A stretch of DNA of 64,000 nucleotides from Trueperaceae bacterium (GTDB taxonomy: Bacteria; Deinococcota; Deinococci; Deinococcales; Trueperaceae). Positions 2,799-13,225 of this stretch are shown one piece after another. Each line of letters begins with the position of its first letter. Within the stretch, counting starts at the first letter, position 1. The stretch is taken from NCBI GenBank assembly GCA_023954415.1, contig JAMLIB010000004.1, forward strand, positions 186,001 through 250,000, read 5' to 3'. Both the position numbers and the translations under genes were made by a program. A model generated the notes under the pieces. That model had not been told where the DNA came from and searched no databases. It saw only the letters and a list, made by a program, of their open reading frames with translations.

Positions 2799-3473
2799 AT
2801 GAAGCTGCGTTATCTCGGCCACTCCGGCGTGCAGGTCGTAGCCGACGGCCACGAGGTCGTCTTCGACCCGTTCGTCACCCAGAACCCGCGCGCGGGCGTG
2901 ACGTTGGACGAGCTCGCGCCAGAGGCCGTCCTCATCACGCACGCTCACGGCGACCATTGGGGCGACACCCCGGAACTCGCGAAGCGTGCAGGCGCCCTCG
3001 TCGTCGGCACGGCCGAGGTGGCCGGCTACGCCGGGAAGCTGGGCCTCACCAACCACGCCATGAACATCGGGGGGAGCCGCTCGTTCCCGTTCGGGCGCGT
3101 CACCCTGACGCCGGCGTGGCACTCGAGCTCGTTCCCGGACGGCACGTACGGCGGCATGCCGACGGGCATCGTCCTCGAGTCGGCCGGCAAGCGCATCTAT
3201 CATGCCGGCGACACGGCGCTCTTCTCCGACATGCGGTTGATCGGCCGCAAGCCCCTCGACCTGGCGTTCGTTCCCATCGGCGACAACTTCACGATGGGCC
3301 CGGAAGACGCCGTAGAGGCCGTGAAGCTGCTGAACCCCCGCTACGTCGTGCCCGTCCATTACGGCACCTTCCCCCTGATCGCCCAGGACGCCGCCGCGTT
3401 CAAACGCGAGGTCGAGCTCTCCTCCAGGACGACGTGCGTGGTGCTGGCGCCCGGCGAGGAAGTATCGCTCTGA
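2799..3473 (+). CDS. UPF0173 family metal-dependent hydrolase (metallo-beta-lactamase fold)
   Basis: Encodes 224 residues, the usual length for UPF0173. The metal site is visible as HAHGDHWGD (about residues 47-55) and the later HAGDTALFSD and PVHYGTFP segments give the remaining ligands. The N-terminus MKLRYLGHSGVQV is the conserved first strand. The ATG at 2799 has AGGAGG eight bases upstream. The substrate is unknown for the family; activity against phosphodiester or ester bonds is only inferred from the fold. Its TGA overlaps the likely CTG start of the following kinase gene, suggesting translational coupling. Confidence 0.92.
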   Translation: MKLRYLGHSGVQVVADGHEVVFDPFVTQNPRAGVTLDELAPEAVLITHAHGDHWGDTPELAKRAGALVVGTAEVAGYAGKLGLTNHAMNIGGSRSFPFGRVTLTPAWHSSSFPDGTYGGMPTGIVLESAGKRIYHAGDTALFSDMRLIGRKPLDLAFVPIGDNFTMGPEDAVEAVKLLNPRYVVPVHYGTFPLIAQDAAAFKREVELSSRTTCVVLAPGEEVSL

Positions 3474-4510
3474 ACGAGAGCCGGCCCGCGCCGCCCTTCG
3501 TCCCGCCCGGTTACGAGGTCATGAACCGTCTGGGATCGGGGCAGACGGCGCACGTCTACGCGGCGCGGCACGCGGTGTTCGGCGACGTGGCCCTCAAGCT
3601 GCCGCGCCCCGAGCTGGCCCATCGGCCGGTCCTGCGCCGCATGTTCGAGAACGAGGTCGCCATCACGACCAAGCTCGCCTCGCCGCAGGTGGTGAGCGCG
3701 TACGAGGGGTTCCCGACCGGCCCCGGCGCGTTCCTCGCCCTCGAGTACTGCCGCGGCGGCACGCTCGACCAGCTCCTCCTCGAGAAGGGGCTCATGCCGC
3801 TCGACAGGTGTTACCGGTTCATCCTCGACGTCGCCGCCGGGCTGGCGCACAGCCACGAGCGCCAGGTCCTGCACCGCGACGTCAAGCCGGCCAACGTCTT
3901 CCTGACCTCGGAGGGCGCCGCGAAGCTCGGCGACTTCGGCACGGGCATGTTCATGAGCGACGACACCAGCGACCGCGTGGGTACGGCGTTCTACATGGCC
4001 CCGGAAGTGTTCGAGGGGAAGCCGGCCGGGATCAGGTCGGACATCTACTCGCTCGGTGTCCTCGCCTACGAGGTGATCGGCGGGGAGCGCCCGTTCACCG
4101 GGAACTCCTACGACGCGCTCATGGTGGCGCATAGGACGGGCGTGCCGAAGGACCTGCGCGGACTGCGGCAGGGGCTCTCGCCGGAAGTCGTCCGCGTGGT
4201 GGCTCTTGCCATGATGCGCGACCCGGCGAAGAGGTTCGCGAGCGCCGTAGAGTTCGGCGAGGCCCTCGGCTCGGTCACCGCGACGGCCTTGCGGCGGGAG
4301 TCGGCCTCCCGCTCCGGGACGGCGGAGCCGGCGCAGACGCGGGTGACCGGCCGCGGCAGCCGCGCGGTCGGGCGCGGCGGGGGGGAAGACGACGGCGGCG
4401 GGCGGCCCGACGAAGGTCGGCGGCGCGACCACGGCAAGGGTGCCGAGGGCGAGCGCGCGCGGCGCCCGAAGGGCGGCGTCTTCGGCTGGCTGAAACGCGG
4501 TCGGGGCTGA
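3470..4510 (+). CDS. Cytoplasmic Hanks-type Ser/Thr protein kinase
   Basis: About 346 residues. Kinase subdomains appear in order: glycine loop LGSGQTAHVY (about 21-30), catalytic lysine in ALKLP (about 43), HRDVKPAN (about 135-142), DFG (about 155-157) and MAPE (about 176-179). After about residue 275 the tail is low complexity and rich in Arg, Gly and Asp, ending FGWLKRGRG, with no membrane helix, PASTA or other sensor domain. No ATG, GTG or TTG lies upstream of strand beta-1. The first ATG (3521) would cut into GYEVMNRLGSG, so I place the start at CTG 3470, which overlaps the previous stop as CTGA and has GAGGAA upstream. The kinase call is firm; the start codon is inference. Confidence 0.88.
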   Translation: MNESRPAPPFVPPGYEVMNRLGSGQTAHVYAARHAVFGDVALKLPRPELAHRPVLRRMFENEVAITTKLASPQVVSAYEGFPTGPGAFLALEYCRGGTLDQLLLEKGLMPLDRCYRFILDVAAGLAHSHERQVLHRDVKPANVFLTSEGAAKLGDFGTGMFMSDDTSDRVGTAFYMAPEVFEGKPAGIRSDIYSLGVLAYEVIGGERPFTGNSYDALMVAHRTGVPKDLRGLRQGLSPEVVRVVALAMMRDPAKRFASAVEFGEALGSVTATALRRESASRSGTAEPAQTRVTGRGSRAVGRGGGEDDGGGRPDEGRRRDHGKGAEGERARRPKGGVFGWLKRGRG

Positions 4511-4625
4511 GGCCCGGTCGCGCCGTCGGTTCCGGGCGAGCGCGCCGCGACCGGCCGACTTGGTAGCCTTAAACCTAAGCGAGGCGCTCGGTGTTCCCAC
4601 CGCGCCCGCGAGAACCGATCCGAGT

Positions 4626-4631
4626 TAGAAT
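4626..4631 (+). promoter_or_regulatory. Possible -10 box of the suf operon
   Basis: TAGAAT lies about 93 bases before sufC, framed by CCGAT/ATCGG half-sites (4616-4620 and 4630-4634). No convincing -35 is seen at 16-18 bases, so this is tentative. Confidence 0.3.
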
Positions 4632-4723
4632 CGGAACGAGTCCAAGTTGTTGCCCTTGGTGGCGATCGCCGCTACACGACCCAGGCAACGAACAGCTCCG
4701 GACCTTCCGTGAGAGGTGTAGGT

Positions 4724-5485
4724 ATGAGTGACAAGCAACTGGAGATCCGAGGTCTGCGCGCTCGCATCGTCGGCGGGGAAGAGATCCTCAAGGGTGTAGA
4801 CCTCGTGGTGCCGCGCGGCGAGGTCCACGCGCTCATGGGGCCGAACGGCTCCGGCAAGTCCACGTTGGCCAAGGTCATCGCCGGCGACCCGCAGTACGAG
4901 ATCACGGAAGGCGACATCGTCCTCGAGGGCCAGTCGATCCTCGAGATGGAACCCGACGAGCGCGCCCGCGAGGGCCTCTACCTCGCCTTCCAATACCCCG
5001 TGGAAGTGCCAGGCGTCTCCATCGCGAACTTCCTGCGCCTCGCCCTCAACGCCCGCCGCGAGGAAGGCGACGAGATCGGCGTCATGGAGTTCTACAAGAA
5101 GCTCCAGCGCGCCGTGAAGGAGCTCAACTGGGACGACTCGATCATCGAGCGCAACCTCCACGAGGGCTTCTCGGGCGGCGAGAAGAAGCGCTCCGAGATC
5201 CTGCAGCTCCTCGTGCTGGAGCCCCGCTACGCCATCCTCGACGAGACCGACTCCGGCCTGGACGTCGACGCGCTCAAGGTCGTGTCGCAGGGCGTGAACG
5301 CGGCGCGCGGCCCGAACTTCGGCGCGCTCGTCATCACCCACTACCAGCGCCTCCTCAACCACATCGTCCCCGACAGGGTGCACGTGATGGTGAACGGCAG
5401 GGTCGTGCGCGAAGGCCCGAAGGAGCTCGCCATGGAGCTCGACCAGAAGGGCTACGAGTGGATCCGCGAGGCCGTCGGCGCCTGA
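4724..5485 (+). CDS. sufC: SufC, Fe-S cluster assembly ATPase
   Basis: Soluble ABC-type ATPase of the SufBCD scaffold that builds Fe-S clusters in the cytoplasm. The 253 residues carry Walker A GPNGSGKST (about 39-47), the signature FSGGEKKRSE with the SufC-typical EKKR, and Walker B YAILDETDSGLD. I chose ATG 4724 (MSDKQLEIRGL) over the in-frame GTG at 4709, because GTGAGAGG itself supplies the ribosome site. The gene heads sufC-sufB-sufD-Rieske. The cysteine desulfurase and SufU/SufE partners are not in this window and must be elsewhere. Confidence 0.96.
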   Translation: MSDKQLEIRGLRARIVGGEEILKGVDLVVPRGEVHALMGPNGSGKSTLAKVIAGDPQYEITEGDIVLEGQSILEMEPDERAREGLYLAFQYPVEVPGVSIANFLRLALNARREEGDEIGVMEFYKKLQRAVKELNWDDSIIERNLHEGFSGGEKKRSEILQLLVLEPRYAILDETDSGLDVDALKVVSQGVNAARGPNFGALVITHYQRLLNHIVPDRVHVMVNGRVVREGPKELAMELDQKGYEWIREAVGA

Positions 5486-5521
5486 TCGGCGACCGACGCG
5501 AAGGGCTGAAGGGACACCAGA

Positions 5522-6970
<1,449 letters not shown>

Positions 6971-6971
6971 C

Positions 6972-8294
6972 GTGGCTGCCCTGACAGACAACCCCGCCGT
7001 CGGTTCGGACGCGGTCGAGAGCATCGTCTCCGCCTACCGTGAGCCCGCGTGGCTGGCCGACGAGCGCCGCGCCGCGCTGCGCGCGTACGCCGAGCAGCCG
7101 TTCCCGACCGAGAAGACGGAGGAGTGGCGCTACACGCAGCTCAAGCGCTTCTCGTTCTCCGGGCTCGAGCTCGCCAAGGCGCCAAAGGACGAGAGCGTGC
7201 CCGAGCGCATCCGCATGCGCATCGCCGACTCCGACGCCGAGGGCGTCATCGTCCACAAGGGCAACAAGGTCGTCATGCACCAGGCCGCCATCAAGGAGGC
7301 CGGCGTCGTCTTCACGGACCTGCGCACGGCGCTCCGCGACCACGAGGCCCTCGTGCGTGAGCACCTCTACGACGTCGTCAACGCGCGCCAGACGAAGTTC
7401 ACGGCCCTCAACTCCGCCCTGTGGGAGAACGGCACCTTCGTGTACGTGCCCAAGGACGTCGAGGTCGAGCTGCCGCTCGGCGCCTTCACGACCGCCGACT
7501 CAGGCGGCATCGGCCTCGGGCGCACGCTCATCGTCGTCGACGTCAACGCGCGCCTCACCTTCATCGACGAGTACACGAGCGAGCCGTTCGCCGAACGCCT
7601 CTTCTTCGACGCCGCCACCGAGATCGTGCTGAAGGACGGCGCCAAGCTCCGCTACGTCAGCCTCCAGAACTGGGGCCGCAACGTCGCCCACATCAACAAG
7701 CTGCGGGCGCACCTTGGCAGGGACGCGCGCCTCGAGTCCGTGACCGTCAGCCTCGGCGCCGACGCGGCGCGTGCCGAGGTCGAGAGCCGCCTCGAGGGCC
7801 CCGGCTCCGAGAGCGAGATGCTCGGCCTCTACTTCGCCGACGAGGGCCAGCACTTCAACCAGTTCACGCTCCAGCATCACGCGACCCCGCGCGGCTTCTC
7901 GGACGTACTGTTCAAGGGCGCCGTGCGCGACGCGAGCCAGGCCGTCTACTCCGGCATGATCATCGTCGACCCGCACGCGCAGAAGACGGACGCCTACCAG
8001 ACGAACCGCAACCTCCTCCTCGACGAGGTGGCAGAGGTCGTGTCCATCCCGCAGCTCGAGATCGCGGCGAACGACGTCAAGTGCTCGCACGGCTCCACCA
8101 CCGGCCCGGTGCCGGAGGACCAGCGCTTCTACCTCATGAGCCGCGGCCTGCGGCCCGAGGTCGCCGAGCATGTGCTCGTGACGGGCTTTCTCTACGAGGT
8201 CATGAGCCGCGTGACGCTCCCGAAGGTGGCCGAGTACGTCGAGCGCGTCGTGCAGGCCAAGCTGGGCGTGCCAGGGGTGAAGGAGAAGCTGTGA
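6972..8294 (+). CDS. sufD: SufD, Fe-S cluster scaffold subunit
   Basis: A 440-residue partner of SufB in the SufBC2D complex. Diagnostic segments are EEWRYTQLKRFSFSGLEL near the N-terminus, TALNSALWENGTFVYVPKDVEVE, the beta-helix repeats, and SIPQLEIAANDVKCSHGSTTG with EDQRFYLMSRGL near the C-terminus. The GTG start at 6972 is one base past the sufB stop. Its own stop overlaps the GTG of the following Rieske gene by four bases, so all four genes look translationally coupled. Confidence 0.96.
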   Translation: MAALTDNPAVGSDAVESIVSAYREPAWLADERRAALRAYAEQPFPTEKTEEWRYTQLKRFSFSGLELAKAPKDESVPERIRMRIADSDAEGVIVHKGNKVVMHQAAIKEAGVVFTDLRTALRDHEALVREHLYDVVNARQTKFTALNSALWENGTFVYVPKDVEVELPLGAFTTADSGGIGLGRTLIVVDVNARLTFIDEYTSEPFAERLFFDAATEIVLKDGAKLRYVSLQNWGRNVAHINKLRAHLGRDARLESVTVSLGADAARAEVESRLEGPGSESEMLGLYFADEGQHFNQFTLQHHATPRGFSDVLFKGAVRDASQAVYSGMIIVDPHAQKTDAYQTNRNLLLDEVAEVVSIPQLEIAANDVKCSHGSTTGPVPEDQRFYLMSRGLRPEVAEHVLVTGFLYEVMSRVTLPKVAEYVERVVQAKLGVPGVKEKL

Positions 8295-9889: not shown

Positions 9890-10369
9890 CTAAGCGATCA
9901 CGACGCCGAGCACGACGCTGGCCTGCACGTGATCGGGCGCGAGCCCCTCGCTCGTCTTGAACGTGATGCCAACGGCGTCGGGTCCTATGCCTAACAGTTT
10001 CGCCACGGACGCGGCGATCTCGTCCCGGTATCTGCCGAGCTTGGGCGCGTCGAGCGTGACCACGGCGGCGACGTTCGTAACGTGCGCGGCCCCGGCGCGC
10101 TCTTCGAGGTCGGTCAGGGCGCGCTTCACGATGGTCCGGCTGTCGAGGCCGGCGAAGGCCGGGTCCGTGGGCGGGAAGAGCTTGCCGATGTCACCGAGCG
10201 CGTGCGTGGAGAGGAGCGCGTCCGCCAGGGCGTGCAGGAGCACGTCGCCGTCCGAGTGGGCGTCGGCGCCGCGCTCGGAGGGGACCGTGATGCCGCCGAT
10301 CACTAGCGGCCTGCCCGGTGCGAGGCGGTGGGCATCCTGGCCGTGCCCGACGCGGAAAGCTGGTGACAT
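9890..10369 (-). CDS. ispF: IspF, 2-C-methyl-D-erythritol 2,4-cyclodiphosphate synthase
   Basis: Cyclises CDP-ME-2-phosphate to MEcPP in the non-mevalonate isoprenoid pathway and works as a zinc-dependent trimer. The 159 residues show the ligands Asp12 and His14 (GHGQDAHRL) and His46 ([13 protein letters not shown]), [13 protein letters not shown], and the C-terminal [11 protein letters not shown] six bases upstream (10375) is in frame, but a TAGCAT box exactly six bases before ATG 10369 points to that ATG. It is divergent from the carbamoyltransferase gene. Confidence 0.97.
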
Positions 10370-10381
10370 GACCACATGCTA
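10370..10381 (-). promoter_or_regulatory. Leaderless -10 box of ispF
   Basis: TAGCAT (10376-10381, minus strand) plus six bases (GTGGTC) precede ATG 10369. It decides between two in-frame starts. Confidence 0.65.
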
Positions 10382-10419: not shown

Positions 10420-11241
10420 ATGCGGCACCTGTTGCGCCTGGGCGACCTACTCTTTCGAGACCTGCACGAGCTGTTCGCGCTGGCCGAGGCGTACCGCGAC
10501 GGTGAGGGGCCGCGTTACGACGGCTGTGCCGCGCTGTTCTTCCCGCCCACCAGCCTCCGCACGCGCATGGCGTTCGAGCTGGGAGCCACGCGCATGGGGC
10601 TGCAACCGGTGACGTTCCCGCCGGAGACGCTCGACAAGCCCGAGGCGCCGGCCGACGTGGCCGGCTACCTCGCGCAGTGGGCCGACATCCTCGTGGCGCG
10701 CCACAAGGACATCGGCGTACTGGAAGGGCTGGCCGCCGCCGGGGCGCTGCCCGTCGTCAACGCCATGACGGACGTCAACCACCCGTGCGAGGTCCTGTCC
10801 GACCTCTTCGCGCTCTCCGCCACGGCCGACCCGCTGGGACTGCGCTACCTGTTCGTCGGCGCGGACGGCAACATCGCGAGGGGGTGGTCGGAGGCGGCGG
10901 CGGCGTTCGGGTTGGACCTAGTGCAGTGCTGCCCGCGGGAACTCGCCGTTCCGGGCGCGAGGTGGGAAGGCGACCTCGCGGACGCCGTTTCGCGGGCCGA
11001 CGTCATCGTCACGGACGCCCCAGGGCCTCACACCGAGGCGCTCGCCCCTTACCGAGTGACCGCGGCGGTCTTGAGCTTAGCGCCGGCCGGCGCGCGCTTC
11101 GCCCCATGCCCGCCGTTCGTGCGCGGGCGAGAGGTAGCGGCCGACGCCACCGCCCACCCCGCGTTCGTCGGGTACGAGTTCAAGGCCGCCCTGCTGCCTA
11201 TGCAGCAGGCGGTGATGGCGTTGCTCCTCGGTTCCGTCTAG
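10420..11241 (+). CDS. Divergent ornithine/aspartate carbamoyltransferase-family protein
   Basis: Encodes 273 residues, shorter than the usual 300-340. The carbamoyl phosphate loop is present as PPTSLRTRMAFE (42-53, SxRTR kept). The HPCQ motif is HPCE (121-124). The ornithine-side HCLPxxRGxEV motif reads APCPPFVRGREV (228-239), with the His replaced by Pro but Cys, RG and EV kept. The SMG loop of true ornithine enzymes is not visible; the equivalent stretch is VTDAPGPHTEAL. It is clearly of this fold, but I would not call it argF or pyrB. Substrate unknown, and catalysis may be altered. It is divergent from ispF and followed by an EamA transporter. Confidence 0.82.
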   Translation: MRHLLRLGDLLFRDLHELFALAEAYRDGEGPRYDGCAALFFPPTSLRTRMAFELGATRMGLQPVTFPPETLDKPEAPADVAGYLAQWADILVARHKDIGVLEGLAAAGALPVVNAMTDVNHPCEVLSDLFALSATADPLGLRYLFVGADGNIARGWSEAAAAFGLDLVQCCPRELAVPGARWEGDLADAVSRADVIVTDAPGPHTEALAPYRVTAAVLSLAPAGARFAPCPPFVRGREVAADATAHPAFVGYEFKAALLPMQQAVMALLLGSV

Positions 11242-11265
11242 CCGCCCCGTGCGATGATCGGACGC

Positions 11266-12159
11266 GTGTCTCCCACGGTCGGCGTCTTGTCGTTGGTTCT
11301 CGTGACGCTCATCTGGGGCAGCACCTTCGTCGTCGTCAAGGAGGCGCTCGACACCATCCCCGTGCCGCTCCTCCTGGCCTTACGCTTCACTCTCGCCGCG
11401 CTGCTGCTCTCATGGGCGAAGTGGGACCGGCGGGCTCTGGTGCCCGCCTTGGTGCTCGGGTCGTTGTCGTTCACCGGCTTCGCAGCTCAGACGGCCGGTC
11501 TCGCCATCACCAGCGCCTCGAACGCGGCCTTCATCACCGGGTTGTCTGTCATCCTCACGCCGATCGTGGCACGCGCCTGGCTCAAGAAGTCGCTCTCAGG
11601 CCGCGTCTACCTGGCGGCCGTCGTGGCGCTGGTAGGCCTCGCGCTCATGACGTTGCGTGAGGGCGTCGAGTCCGTCAACGCCGGCGACATCCTCATGCTG
11701 GCCACCGCCCTGTGCTACGCCCTCTACATCGTGTACCTGGGCGAGGTGGCAGGGAAGGTGCGCGGCACGTCGCTCGCCATGATGCAGCACCTGCCCATGG
11801 CGGCCCTGGCTTGGCTCTGGGCGGCGCCGCAGGCGGGCAAGCTGCCCACGGTCCCCGCGGAGACGTACCTGGCGATCGTCTACTTGGCGGTCGTGGCCAC
11901 GGCGCTGATCGCCATCGTCCAGACCTACGCCCAGCGCGTCGTGCCAGCCCACCTCGCCGCCCTGATCTTCGTGCTCGAGCCAGTCTTCGCCGCGGGCTTC
12001 GCGGCGGTGCTGCTGGGCGAGCGGCTGGGCACGCTGGGGTGGATCGGGGCCGCCCTGATCCTGCTCGCCATGCTCGTAGCCGAGCTGCGGCTGCCGGGGG
12101 CCGCGCGTGACCGGCTGGCGGCGCGGGATCGTCAGGATGCGGGTCGGGGCGAGAGGTAG
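11266..12159 (+). CDS. EamA (DMT superfamily) transporter
   Basis: Inner-membrane permease of about 297 residues with ten predicted helices in two EamA repeats. Repeat one opens with LSLVLVTLIWGSTFVVVKEAL and repeat two with ILMLATALCYALYIVYLGEV. The typical ending is LIFVLEPVFAAGFAAVLLGERL, then a basic tail. The family exports amino acids, metabolites or drugs; the substrate cannot be read from sequence. I chose GTG 11266 because GATGAT lies seven bases upstream; the in-frame ATG at 11254 is the alternative. It follows the carbamoyltransferase gene by 24 bases. Confidence 0.88.
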   Translation: MSPTVGVLSLVLVTLIWGSTFVVVKEALDTIPVPLLLALRFTLAALLLSWAKWDRRALVPALVLGSLSFTGFAAQTAGLAITSASNAAFITGLSVILTPIVARAWLKKSLSGRVYLAAVVALVGLALMTLREGVESVNAGDILMLATALCYALYIVYLGEVAGKVRGTSLAMMQHLPMAALAWLWAAPQAGKLPTVPAETYLAIVYLAVVATALIAIVQTYAQRVVPAHLAALIFVLEPVFAAGFAAVLLGERLGTLGWIGAALILLAMLVAELRLPGAARDRLAARDRQDAGRGER

Positions 12160-12265
12160 TACCTGTCGGAGTTCGGAACGGAGCCTAGAGCAGACCGACG
12201 TGACGTAAGGTCGAGTGAGCCCGGCGTCATCTGCTCCGAGCATCCACGCGGGACCCGCTGAGCTG

Positions 12266-12301
12266 TTGACCGCGGCTGCCCCGTGTCTCTATCGTGCCGC
12301 C
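12266..12301 (+). promoter_or_regulatory. Leaderless promoter of the toroid-repeat gene
   Basis: The -35 TTGACC (12266-12271), an 18-base spacer and the -10 TATCGT (12290-12295) are followed by six bases and ATG 12302. It is one of the most complete promoters in the window. Confidence 0.75.
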
Positions 12302-13225
12302 ATGCCTACTGAGAGCTCGACGGTGAACTGGCTGCTGCGCGGCGACCCAGCGATAAGGTGGCAGACCCTGCGCGACCTGGCGGGCGCGCCCGCGGAGCAG
12401 TATGCGCCGGAGCGCGCCGAAGTCGCTACGCGAGGCTGGGGCGCCGAGCTGCTGGCGCGCCAGCACGACGACGGTCAGTGGCGCGTCGCGAGGGCGGAGT
12501 GGCCGCTGGCGCCCACGCTTTACACGCTGCAGCTCCTCAGGCACTGCGGGCTCGACCCTCGGAGCGAGCAGGCGCGCCGCGCCGTCGCCAGGGTGCAGGC
12601 GGGCGTGCGCTGGGAGTTCTGGGGCAACGCCCCGTTCTTCGACGGCGAGGTGGAGCCGTGCATCAACGGCGGCGTCCTGGCCGTCGGGGCCTACTTCGGT
12701 GCGGCCTCCTCCAAGCTGGTCGACCGCCTGCTTAGCGAGCAGCTCGCCGACGGCGGCTGGAACTGCGAGGCCGAGAACGGCTCGGTCCGCTCGTCGTTCC
12801 ACACGACCATCTGCGTGCTCGAGGGTCTGCTCGAGTACGAGCGCTCGGTGCAGGCCGCGCCCGCCGTGACGGAAGCCCGGCTGCGTGCCGAGGAGTACCT
12901 TCTCGAACGGCGGCTCCTGAGGCGCGCCAGCACGGGCGAGGTCATCGACACGTACTGGACGCGCTTCCCGTTCCCCGCCTACTGGCGTTACGACGTGCTG
13001 CGCGCGCTCGAGCATCTGCGGGCCGCCGGGCGCGGGCGCGACCCGCGGCTGGACGAACCGCTGGACATCGTCAGGCGCAGGCGCCGCAAGGACGGCCGGT
13101 GGTCGTTGGGTGAGCCGTACAGCTTCGATCACCACGGCATCGCCCTCGACCCGGGCCGTGGCAAGCCCAGTCGCTGGGTGACGCTGCGGGCGGCGCGGGT
13201 GTTGGAGCGCTTCGGGGGCGCTTAG
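12302..13225 (+). CDS. Terpenoid-cyclase-like alpha/alpha toroid protein (QW repeats)
   Basis: Encodes 307 residues. At least three QW-type repeat cores are visible: RQHDDGQW, QLADGGWNCE and RRKDGRWSLG, as in squalene cyclase and prenyltransferase toroids. It lacks the DXDD protonation motif of squalene-hopene cyclases and is half their length, so it is unlikely to be a triterpene cyclase. There is no signal peptide. Proteins like this are widespread as hypotheticals, and the function is unknown. It has its own leaderless promoter and converges on pbpC 43 bases away. Confidence 0.78.
   Translation: MPTESSTVNWLLRGDPAIRWQTLRDLAGAPAEQYAPERAEVATRGWGAELLARQHDDGQWRVARAEWPLAPTLYTLQLLRHCGLDPRSEQARRAVARVQAGVRWEFWGNAPFFDGEVEPCINGGVLAVGAYFGAASSKLVDRLLSEQLADGGWNCEAENGSVRSSFHTTICVLEGLLEYERSVQAAPAVTEARLRAEEYLLERRLLRRASTGEVIDTYWTRFPFPAYWRYDVLRALEHLRAAGRGRDPRLDEPLDIVRRRRRKDGRWSLGEPYSFDHHGIALDPGRGKPSRWVTLRAARVLERFGGA

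Follow-up and report, generated by a model that had tools for sequence, protein, structure and literature searches.

A third transcarbamylase-fold protein in a Trueperaceae genome belongs to a separate family with HPCE and PCPP in place of the superfamily motifs

The analysed window is a 64,000-nucleotide stretch of the genome of a Trueperaceae bacterium. A short gene of the carbamoyltransferase family, supported by Pfam domains, the family alignment and a structure model, lies on its forward strand at positions 10420–11241, starts with ATG and encodes a product of 273 amino acids. Upstream it is flanked by ispF on the reverse strand (9890–10375; TIGR00151, 156 bits, cut-off 116.45) and downstream by a gene for an EamA-type transporter on the forward strand (11254–12159), which adjoins ispF in species that do not have the carbamoyltransferase gene. 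Past the EamA gene, a forward-strand open reading frame of 336 residues (12215–13225) gave no Pfam match at E 0.001.

The 273-residue product contains both transcarbamylase domains above the Pfam cut-offs (OTCace_N 87.8 bits, OTCace 41.6 bits). Together with the predicted structure, this places it in the transcarbamylase superfamily, as proposed in the preliminary description, which was made from the sequence alone. Against every matching NCBIfam transcarbamylase model the product scores far below the cut-off. The nearest model is that of ornithine carbamoyltransferase (OTC; NF001986, 121.8 bits versus 306), and a further OTC model, TIGR00658, gives 105.8 bits versus 280.85. The models of aspartate carbamoyltransferase (NF002032, 55.5 versus 263), putrescine carbamoyltransferase (PTC; TIGR04384, 73.6 versus 500) and acetylornithine carbamoyltransferase (NF003384, 40.7 versus 288) are more distant, and the NCBIfam search at E 0.001 returned no match to the YgeW model. 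In the host genome (3.2 Mb, 96% complete), PF02729 is found at three places, namely ArgF on contig C11 (DVWISMG; 340 bits, cut-off 280.85), PyrB on contig C10 (350.7 bits, cut-off 263) and the gene at 10420–11241. The genome also carries ArgG. Since ArgF and PyrB are encoded separately, the gene is a third paralogue, which agrees with the earlier statement that it matches neither of the two.

The catalytic residues were located in a residue map of the family against E. coli ArgI and PyrB. The map contains 29 rows of branch A, which includes the window protein, 33 rows of branches A and B together (both branches are described below) and 21 OTC rows; OTC L089, YgeW and the host PyrB were left out. 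The carbamoyl-phosphate phosphate-binding motif SLRTR (codons 45–49, 10552–10566; S45-L-R47-T48-R49) is kept, as the preliminary description states for SxRTR. The equivalents of ArgI S55, R57, T58, R106, H133, N167, D231, C273 and P275 are retained in all 29 branch A rows. Among them, the arginine at codon 94 (10699–10701) corresponds to R106 and is kept in 33/33 rows, Asn151 (10870–10872) to the ornithine-binding N167, and Asp199 of the Thr-Asp pair at codons 198–199 (11011–11016) to D231. Four positions are changed in all 33 rows of both branches: Q136 to Glu, H272 and L274 to Pro, and R319 to Leu. As a result, the superfamily motif HPxQ is replaced by HPCE (codons 121–124, 10780–10791), in which E124 stands for Q136, and HCLP (H272-C273-L274-P275) is replaced by PCPP (P229-C230-P231-P232; 11104–11115). 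The 21 OTC rows all have Gln at the former position, partly by selection because 11 of them (11 of 22 in the tree) were located by the motifs S.RTR and HP.Q. The equivalent of K53 is not retained in the family. The SMG expected after Asp199 is missing (S235-M236-G237, absent from 29/29 branch A rows), in agreement with the earlier remark on the ornithine loop. An invariant lysine, Lys255 of the Phe-Lys pair at codons 254–255 (11179–11184), precedes the position of the lost R319 by three residues in 33/33 rows.

Across the 42 aligned family members, 41 columns are invariant. They include S45, R47, T48, R49, R94, H121, P122, C123, E124, N151, T198-D199, P229–F233 (PCPPF), G236, E238 and F254-K255. 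HPCE and PCPP, the two altered motifs pointed out from the sequence alone, are thus present in 42/42 members, and identical substitutions of this kind are not due to chance. Signatures of other transcarbamylases were sought in the 273-residue product. Neither RxQxER and HP(L/G)P of aspartate carbamoyltransferase nor the (Y/W)(G/W)(V/L/I)x loop and the C-terminal extension of about 20 residues of PTC are present. HDLP and (T/S)RWQ(T/S)(T/M)G of the diaminopropionate and diaminobutyrate enzymes are absent, with PCPP and TDAPG instead. The alignment to E. coli ArgI, made without YgeW, contains no insertions corresponding to the proline-rich loop and the extended 120's loop of the knotted type.

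AlphaFold2 run on the family alignment predicted an unknotted OTC-like fold (pLDDT 95.3, pTM 0.92) with confidence along the full length except for the last residues. The product had been described as short, and it is; the model indicates that this reflects compact loops rather than truncation. Of the best 50 Foldseek matches, the top 49 are OTCs (TM-score by query 0.86–0.92), and a putrescine carbamoyltransferase takes rank 50. VIA-align superposed the model on M. tuberculosis ArgF with Z 34.5 and an rmsd of 1.9 over 272 residues; the best putrescine and aspartate enzymes reached Z 32.4 and 30.9, respectively. The function of the protein does not follow from the fold it is predicted to share with these enzymes.

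Relatives were searched in one genome per species, and 60 loci were returned. Before alignment, 12 of them were dropped as partial, frameshifted or plain OTC (5), leaving 49 full-length sequences including that of the window, 42 of which entered the family and structure alignment. The close relatives (60–94% identity) come from Trueperaceae, Arthrobacter, Paeniglutamicibacter, Plantibacter, Frigoribacterium, Curtobacterium, Oerskovia and Bifidobacterium psychraerophilum, followed by Paraoerskovia (51–52%) and by Lachnospiraceae and other Clostridia (41–48%). The family is therefore distributed over Trueperaceae, Micrococcales/Bifidobacterium and Clostridia. Five deltaproteobacterial loci with 25–26% identity were set aside as OTC-like, and the two of them used in the tree group with or beside the OTCs. 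In a tree of 58 rows, the 29 rows of branch A form one clade (support 100/99), and branches A and B together form one clade separate from the OTCs (100/99); the long-branch OTC row L089 lies outside the other 21. Long branches, among them that of L099 and the stem of branch B, are flagged in the tree, and the grouping of A with B therefore rests also on the shared HPCE and PCPP. No clade of characterised enzymes carrying these residues was found, either in this tree, which was built without reference PTC, AOTC, SOTC, DPTC, DBTC and UGTC (for which curated models and motifs served as the only comparison), or in the published motif table discussed below. Within the genus of the window, dN/dS calculated by NG86 is 0.207 for the pair with L034 and 0.259 for the pair with L035. 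The motif changes are fixed in a distinct family under purifying selection and are not signs of decay.

Branch B is a plasmid-borne sister group from Proteobacteria (Rhizobium, Variovorax and Pantoea) that was obtained by tblastn against plasmids. Its members L095, L096, L097 and L099 (from about position 7001 on) share HPCE and PCPP; the truncated members L098 and L100 were excluded from the tree. In branch B, SxRT is replaced by GWRN, the equivalents of S55 and T58 are lost and the phosphate site is altered, and part of the wider clade may for this reason be inactive or use another donor. Transposases, toxin–antitoxin genes and a fosfomycin-resistance homologue surround the branch B genes on their plasmids. 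Plasmid pPAT9B01 of Pantoea sp. At-9b (L098) carries two carbamoyltransferase-like genes with duplicated neighbours: the gene at 7001 has no start region, and the second one (3388–4251), annotated as OTC, comes after a FosA-like gene.

A viral origin was considered and rejected. The scan of IMG/VR with the family profile yielded no relatives (46 stretches matched a pattern, none was confirmed), and the nine records matched in the phage collection all have less than 31% identity. One of these, L102, was inspected; its sequence resembles an ordinary OTC set in bacterial chromosomal surroundings. This record (CAKLQH020000012.1) is labelled Acinetobacter phage; it contains glnL/glnG, fumC, ispF and argF and resembles a bacterial chromosome rather than a phage.

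The history of the locus was traced within the genus of the window. The carbamoyltransferase gene lies between ispF and the EamA gene in the window and in genome G005. In G003 it adjoins the EamA gene, and ispF is about 1.15 kb away. In G001 and G002, ispF adjoins the EamA gene and the carbamoyltransferase gene is absent. In G004, a fragment matching residues 22–124 remains beside ispF (L115/L120), and comparison of a 3.5 kb stretch at this remnant did not detect the EamA gene. In the tree, the window gene and two relatives nest inside the actinobacterial members (98/99). A conserved-peptide pattern of the family was detected in 3 of 111 Deinococcota genomes, all three in the genus of the window, in 3 of 200 sampled genomes from the family of a lachnospiraceal bearer and in 2 of 198 genomes from the order of an Arthrobacter bearer; the last two counts include the centre genome, and exact pattern matching misses variants. 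No transposon ends were recognised, and the repeats around the gene are only short and chance-like. The nesting in the actinobacterial part of the tree, the empty ispF–EamA site in two sister species and the remnant in one read as the horizontal acquisition of a single gene, inserted between ispF and EamA and subsequently decayed in one species.

The all-against-all comparison of flanking open reading frames at the 60 loci did not reveal a conserved operon. Apart from the family itself, the only neighbour cluster common to more than a few loci has 20 members in 16 loci, and the one member scanned (L068:8856–10793) is an ABC ATPase. That no partner gene is consistently present agrees with a modifying enzyme that works alone. 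Some clostridial loci contain arginine genes. Among the 32 genomes with an argC match (34 searched), argC lies within 5 kb of the family gene in 3 (expected 0.13; crude post hoc P 3e-4). At L048, argF-carA-carB are found directly upstream; argC and argF surround the family gene at L079, L081 and L088; argG and argC lie upstream at L064; and argC is 3.4 kb away at L073. The proximity of arginine genes in this subset of Clostridia is a weak signal. At L048, one open frame of 1344 residues (3871–7905) directly upstream of the family gene scores as the carbamoyl-phosphate synthase large subunit followed by DapF (diaminopimelate epimerase), possibly a fusion.

GNAT domains (Acetyltransf_1) are enriched close to the family genes of Clostridia, where they occur in 14 of 134 near and 3 of 133 far neighbours (Fisher test, P 0.010). 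This tally covers 34 of 36 clostridial loci, two near-duplicates having been dropped, and the far set is a sample of 134 out of 172 from which one very long open reading frame was omitted. At the G+C-rich actinobacterial loci the gene calls were too uncertain for such a tally; of 19 hand-picked actinobacterial open reading frames and one from Trueperaceae, 2 are GNATs and the functions are otherwise mixed. Genes for NUDIX and GrpB proteins, aminoglycoside-modifying enzymes and exporters are likewise present near family genes. This neighbourhood of resistance and GNAT genes is suggestive only. It is a decidedly doubtful proposal that the family is a mobile accessory enzyme acting on toxic or antibiotic amines or amino acids, which it would carbamoylate as a counterpart of the neighbouring GNATs, with an HPCE/PCPP active site departing from the motifs regarded as universal for transcarbamylases.

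We propose that the protein is probably an active transcarbamylase of an uncharacterised, horizontally spread unknotted subfamily, which would carbamoylate an amino-acid-like amine distinct from ornithine and aspartate. The confident fold, the conserved active-site core, the clade apart from OTC, the purifying selection and the presence of true ArgF and PyrB in the same genome argue for this. The intact donor site of branch A, the retained acceptor core of N151, D199 and C230 and the lost lid suggest transfer to an amine other than ornithine. Use of another amine, one of the two options of the preliminary description, is the best-supported reading. Carbamoyl phosphate would be bound at SLRTR, R94 and H121. 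Lys255 may, judging by its position in the sequence only, substitute for the lost Arg319, and Glu124 may take the hydrogen bond of the carbamoyl NH2 that is normally accepted by Gln. Main-chain carbonyls of PCPP would position donor and acceptor, Asn151 and Asp199, retained from OTC, would grip the alpha-amino/carboxyl end of an amino-acid-like acceptor, and loss of the SMG lid would open the pocket to acceptors other than ornithine. Attack of the amine on the carbamoyl carbon would then give a ureido product and phosphate. Lysine carbamoyltransferase (EC 2.1.3.8), to our knowledge an activity without a sequence, could be a candidate. Several observations speak against the proposal of an active enzyme with a new acceptor: HPxQ is given for every family of the published table and Glu could abolish transfer, R319 of OTC is lost, branch B has no equivalents of S55 and T58, no operon is conserved, and two of 34 genomes have ArgG and no other OTC above cut-off.

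These two genomes, G078 and G083, speak for the otherwise unlikely reading of the protein as a divergent OTC, either a second or conditional ArgF or a catabolic enzyme. The retained N167, D231 and C273 equivalents, the best NCBIfam model, though under its cut-off, and the argC and argF genes near some clostridial members point the same way. However, the SMG loop, K53, the Gln of HPxQ and R319 are all lost, a separate OTC scores above the curated cut-off in 32 of the 34 family-bearing genomes, and G078 and G083 are metagenome assemblies, from which argF may be missing by incompleteness. A further reading is a pseudoenzyme or a sensor of carbamoyl phosphate, which would bind the donor or become part of ArgF trimers and transfer nothing. 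Two altered superfamily motifs and the GWRN of branch B are in its favour. In branch A, however, the donor- and acceptor-binding residues, including S45/R47/T48, R94 and H121, are invariant in three phyla, dN/dS is 0.21–0.26, and the genes stand alone in varied contexts with no constant partner; loss of activity, the other option of the preliminary description, is unsupported for this branch, and we consider a pseudoenzyme or sensor rather unlikely. E124 in 33/33 rows and the altered phosphate motif of branch B could also mean that the Gln-to-Glu change has recoded the site of the carbamoyl NH2 and that carbamoyl phosphate is not the donor. Branch A, however, retains the contacts to phosphate and carbonyl, and Glu could accept the same hydrogen bond, which makes another donor very unlikely. 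Membership in a described minor family (putrescine, acetyl- or succinylornithine, YgeW, diaminopropionate/diaminobutyrate or ureidoglycine transcarbamylase) is barely plausible: superfamily and fold are common to all, but the putrescine and acetylornithine scores are far too low, YgeW is not matched, HDLP, H(S/T)LP and the PTC loop are missing, and the published table has HPxQ for all families listed.

Shi et al. (PMC4581275), as far as the text of their review was available, describe HPxQ and HxLP as common to all known transcarbamylases and state that a considerable number of sequences from bacteria have no essential motifs and may be novel transcarbamylases; an uncharacterised branch is thus to be expected in general. 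The motif table accompanying the superfamily tree of Barba et al. 2013 (PMC4016543) gives HPxQ for every family, which puts HPCE/PCPP outside all those listed there. With OTC (ArgF/ArgI, EC 2.1.3.3) the family shares the unknotted fold, SxRT and the R106, H133, N167, D231 and C273 equivalents; unlike OTC, it has HPCE and PCPP, lacks the SMG loop, K53 and R319, is roughly 30–60 residues shorter and forms its own clade. PTC resembles it in an OTC-like fold with an altered 230/SMG loop; according to the part of PMC3282769 available, PTC has HPxQ, HCLP and a C-terminal helix extension, whereas the window protein has no extension. The 'unknown carbamoyltransferases' (UTC) of Naumoff et al. 2004 are likewise OTC-annotated sequences branching outside OTC, and the HPCE/PCPP family would fall in this informal class. 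UTC is, however, a provisional label for several clusters (PMC514541); the accessible text of that paper does not contain HPCE, and its clusters could include the present family. The pseudo-ATCases, among them ureidoglycine transcarbamylase, are also extra paralogues with altered HxLP, but they belong to the ATCase side and keep HPTQ in the available part of PMC4016543, whereas the HPCE family is on the OTC side. The open-access literature, to which the search was confined with subscription papers outside it, yielded no description of an HPCE/PCPP transcarbamylase.

Transcarbamylases belong to the textbook enzymes, and HPxQ and HxLP serve to define their superfamily; a conserved clade replaces both and keeps most other catalytic residues, so that this definition is too narrow. 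The clade offers a set of proteins at hand in which a new ureido-forming reaction could be sought. It also reveals a misannotation, as public records label the Frondihabitans, Rhizobium and Pantoea members ornithine carbamoyltransferase. The host ArgF itself (L001:1468–2409, on contig C11 of G000) has DxxxSMG and HPCQ, yet HDLP where HCLP is expected. HDLP is described in the accessible text of PMC4581275 as characteristic of diaminopropionate/diaminobutyrate transcarbamylases; among the mapped OTCs, Asp occupies this position in 3 of 21 rows.
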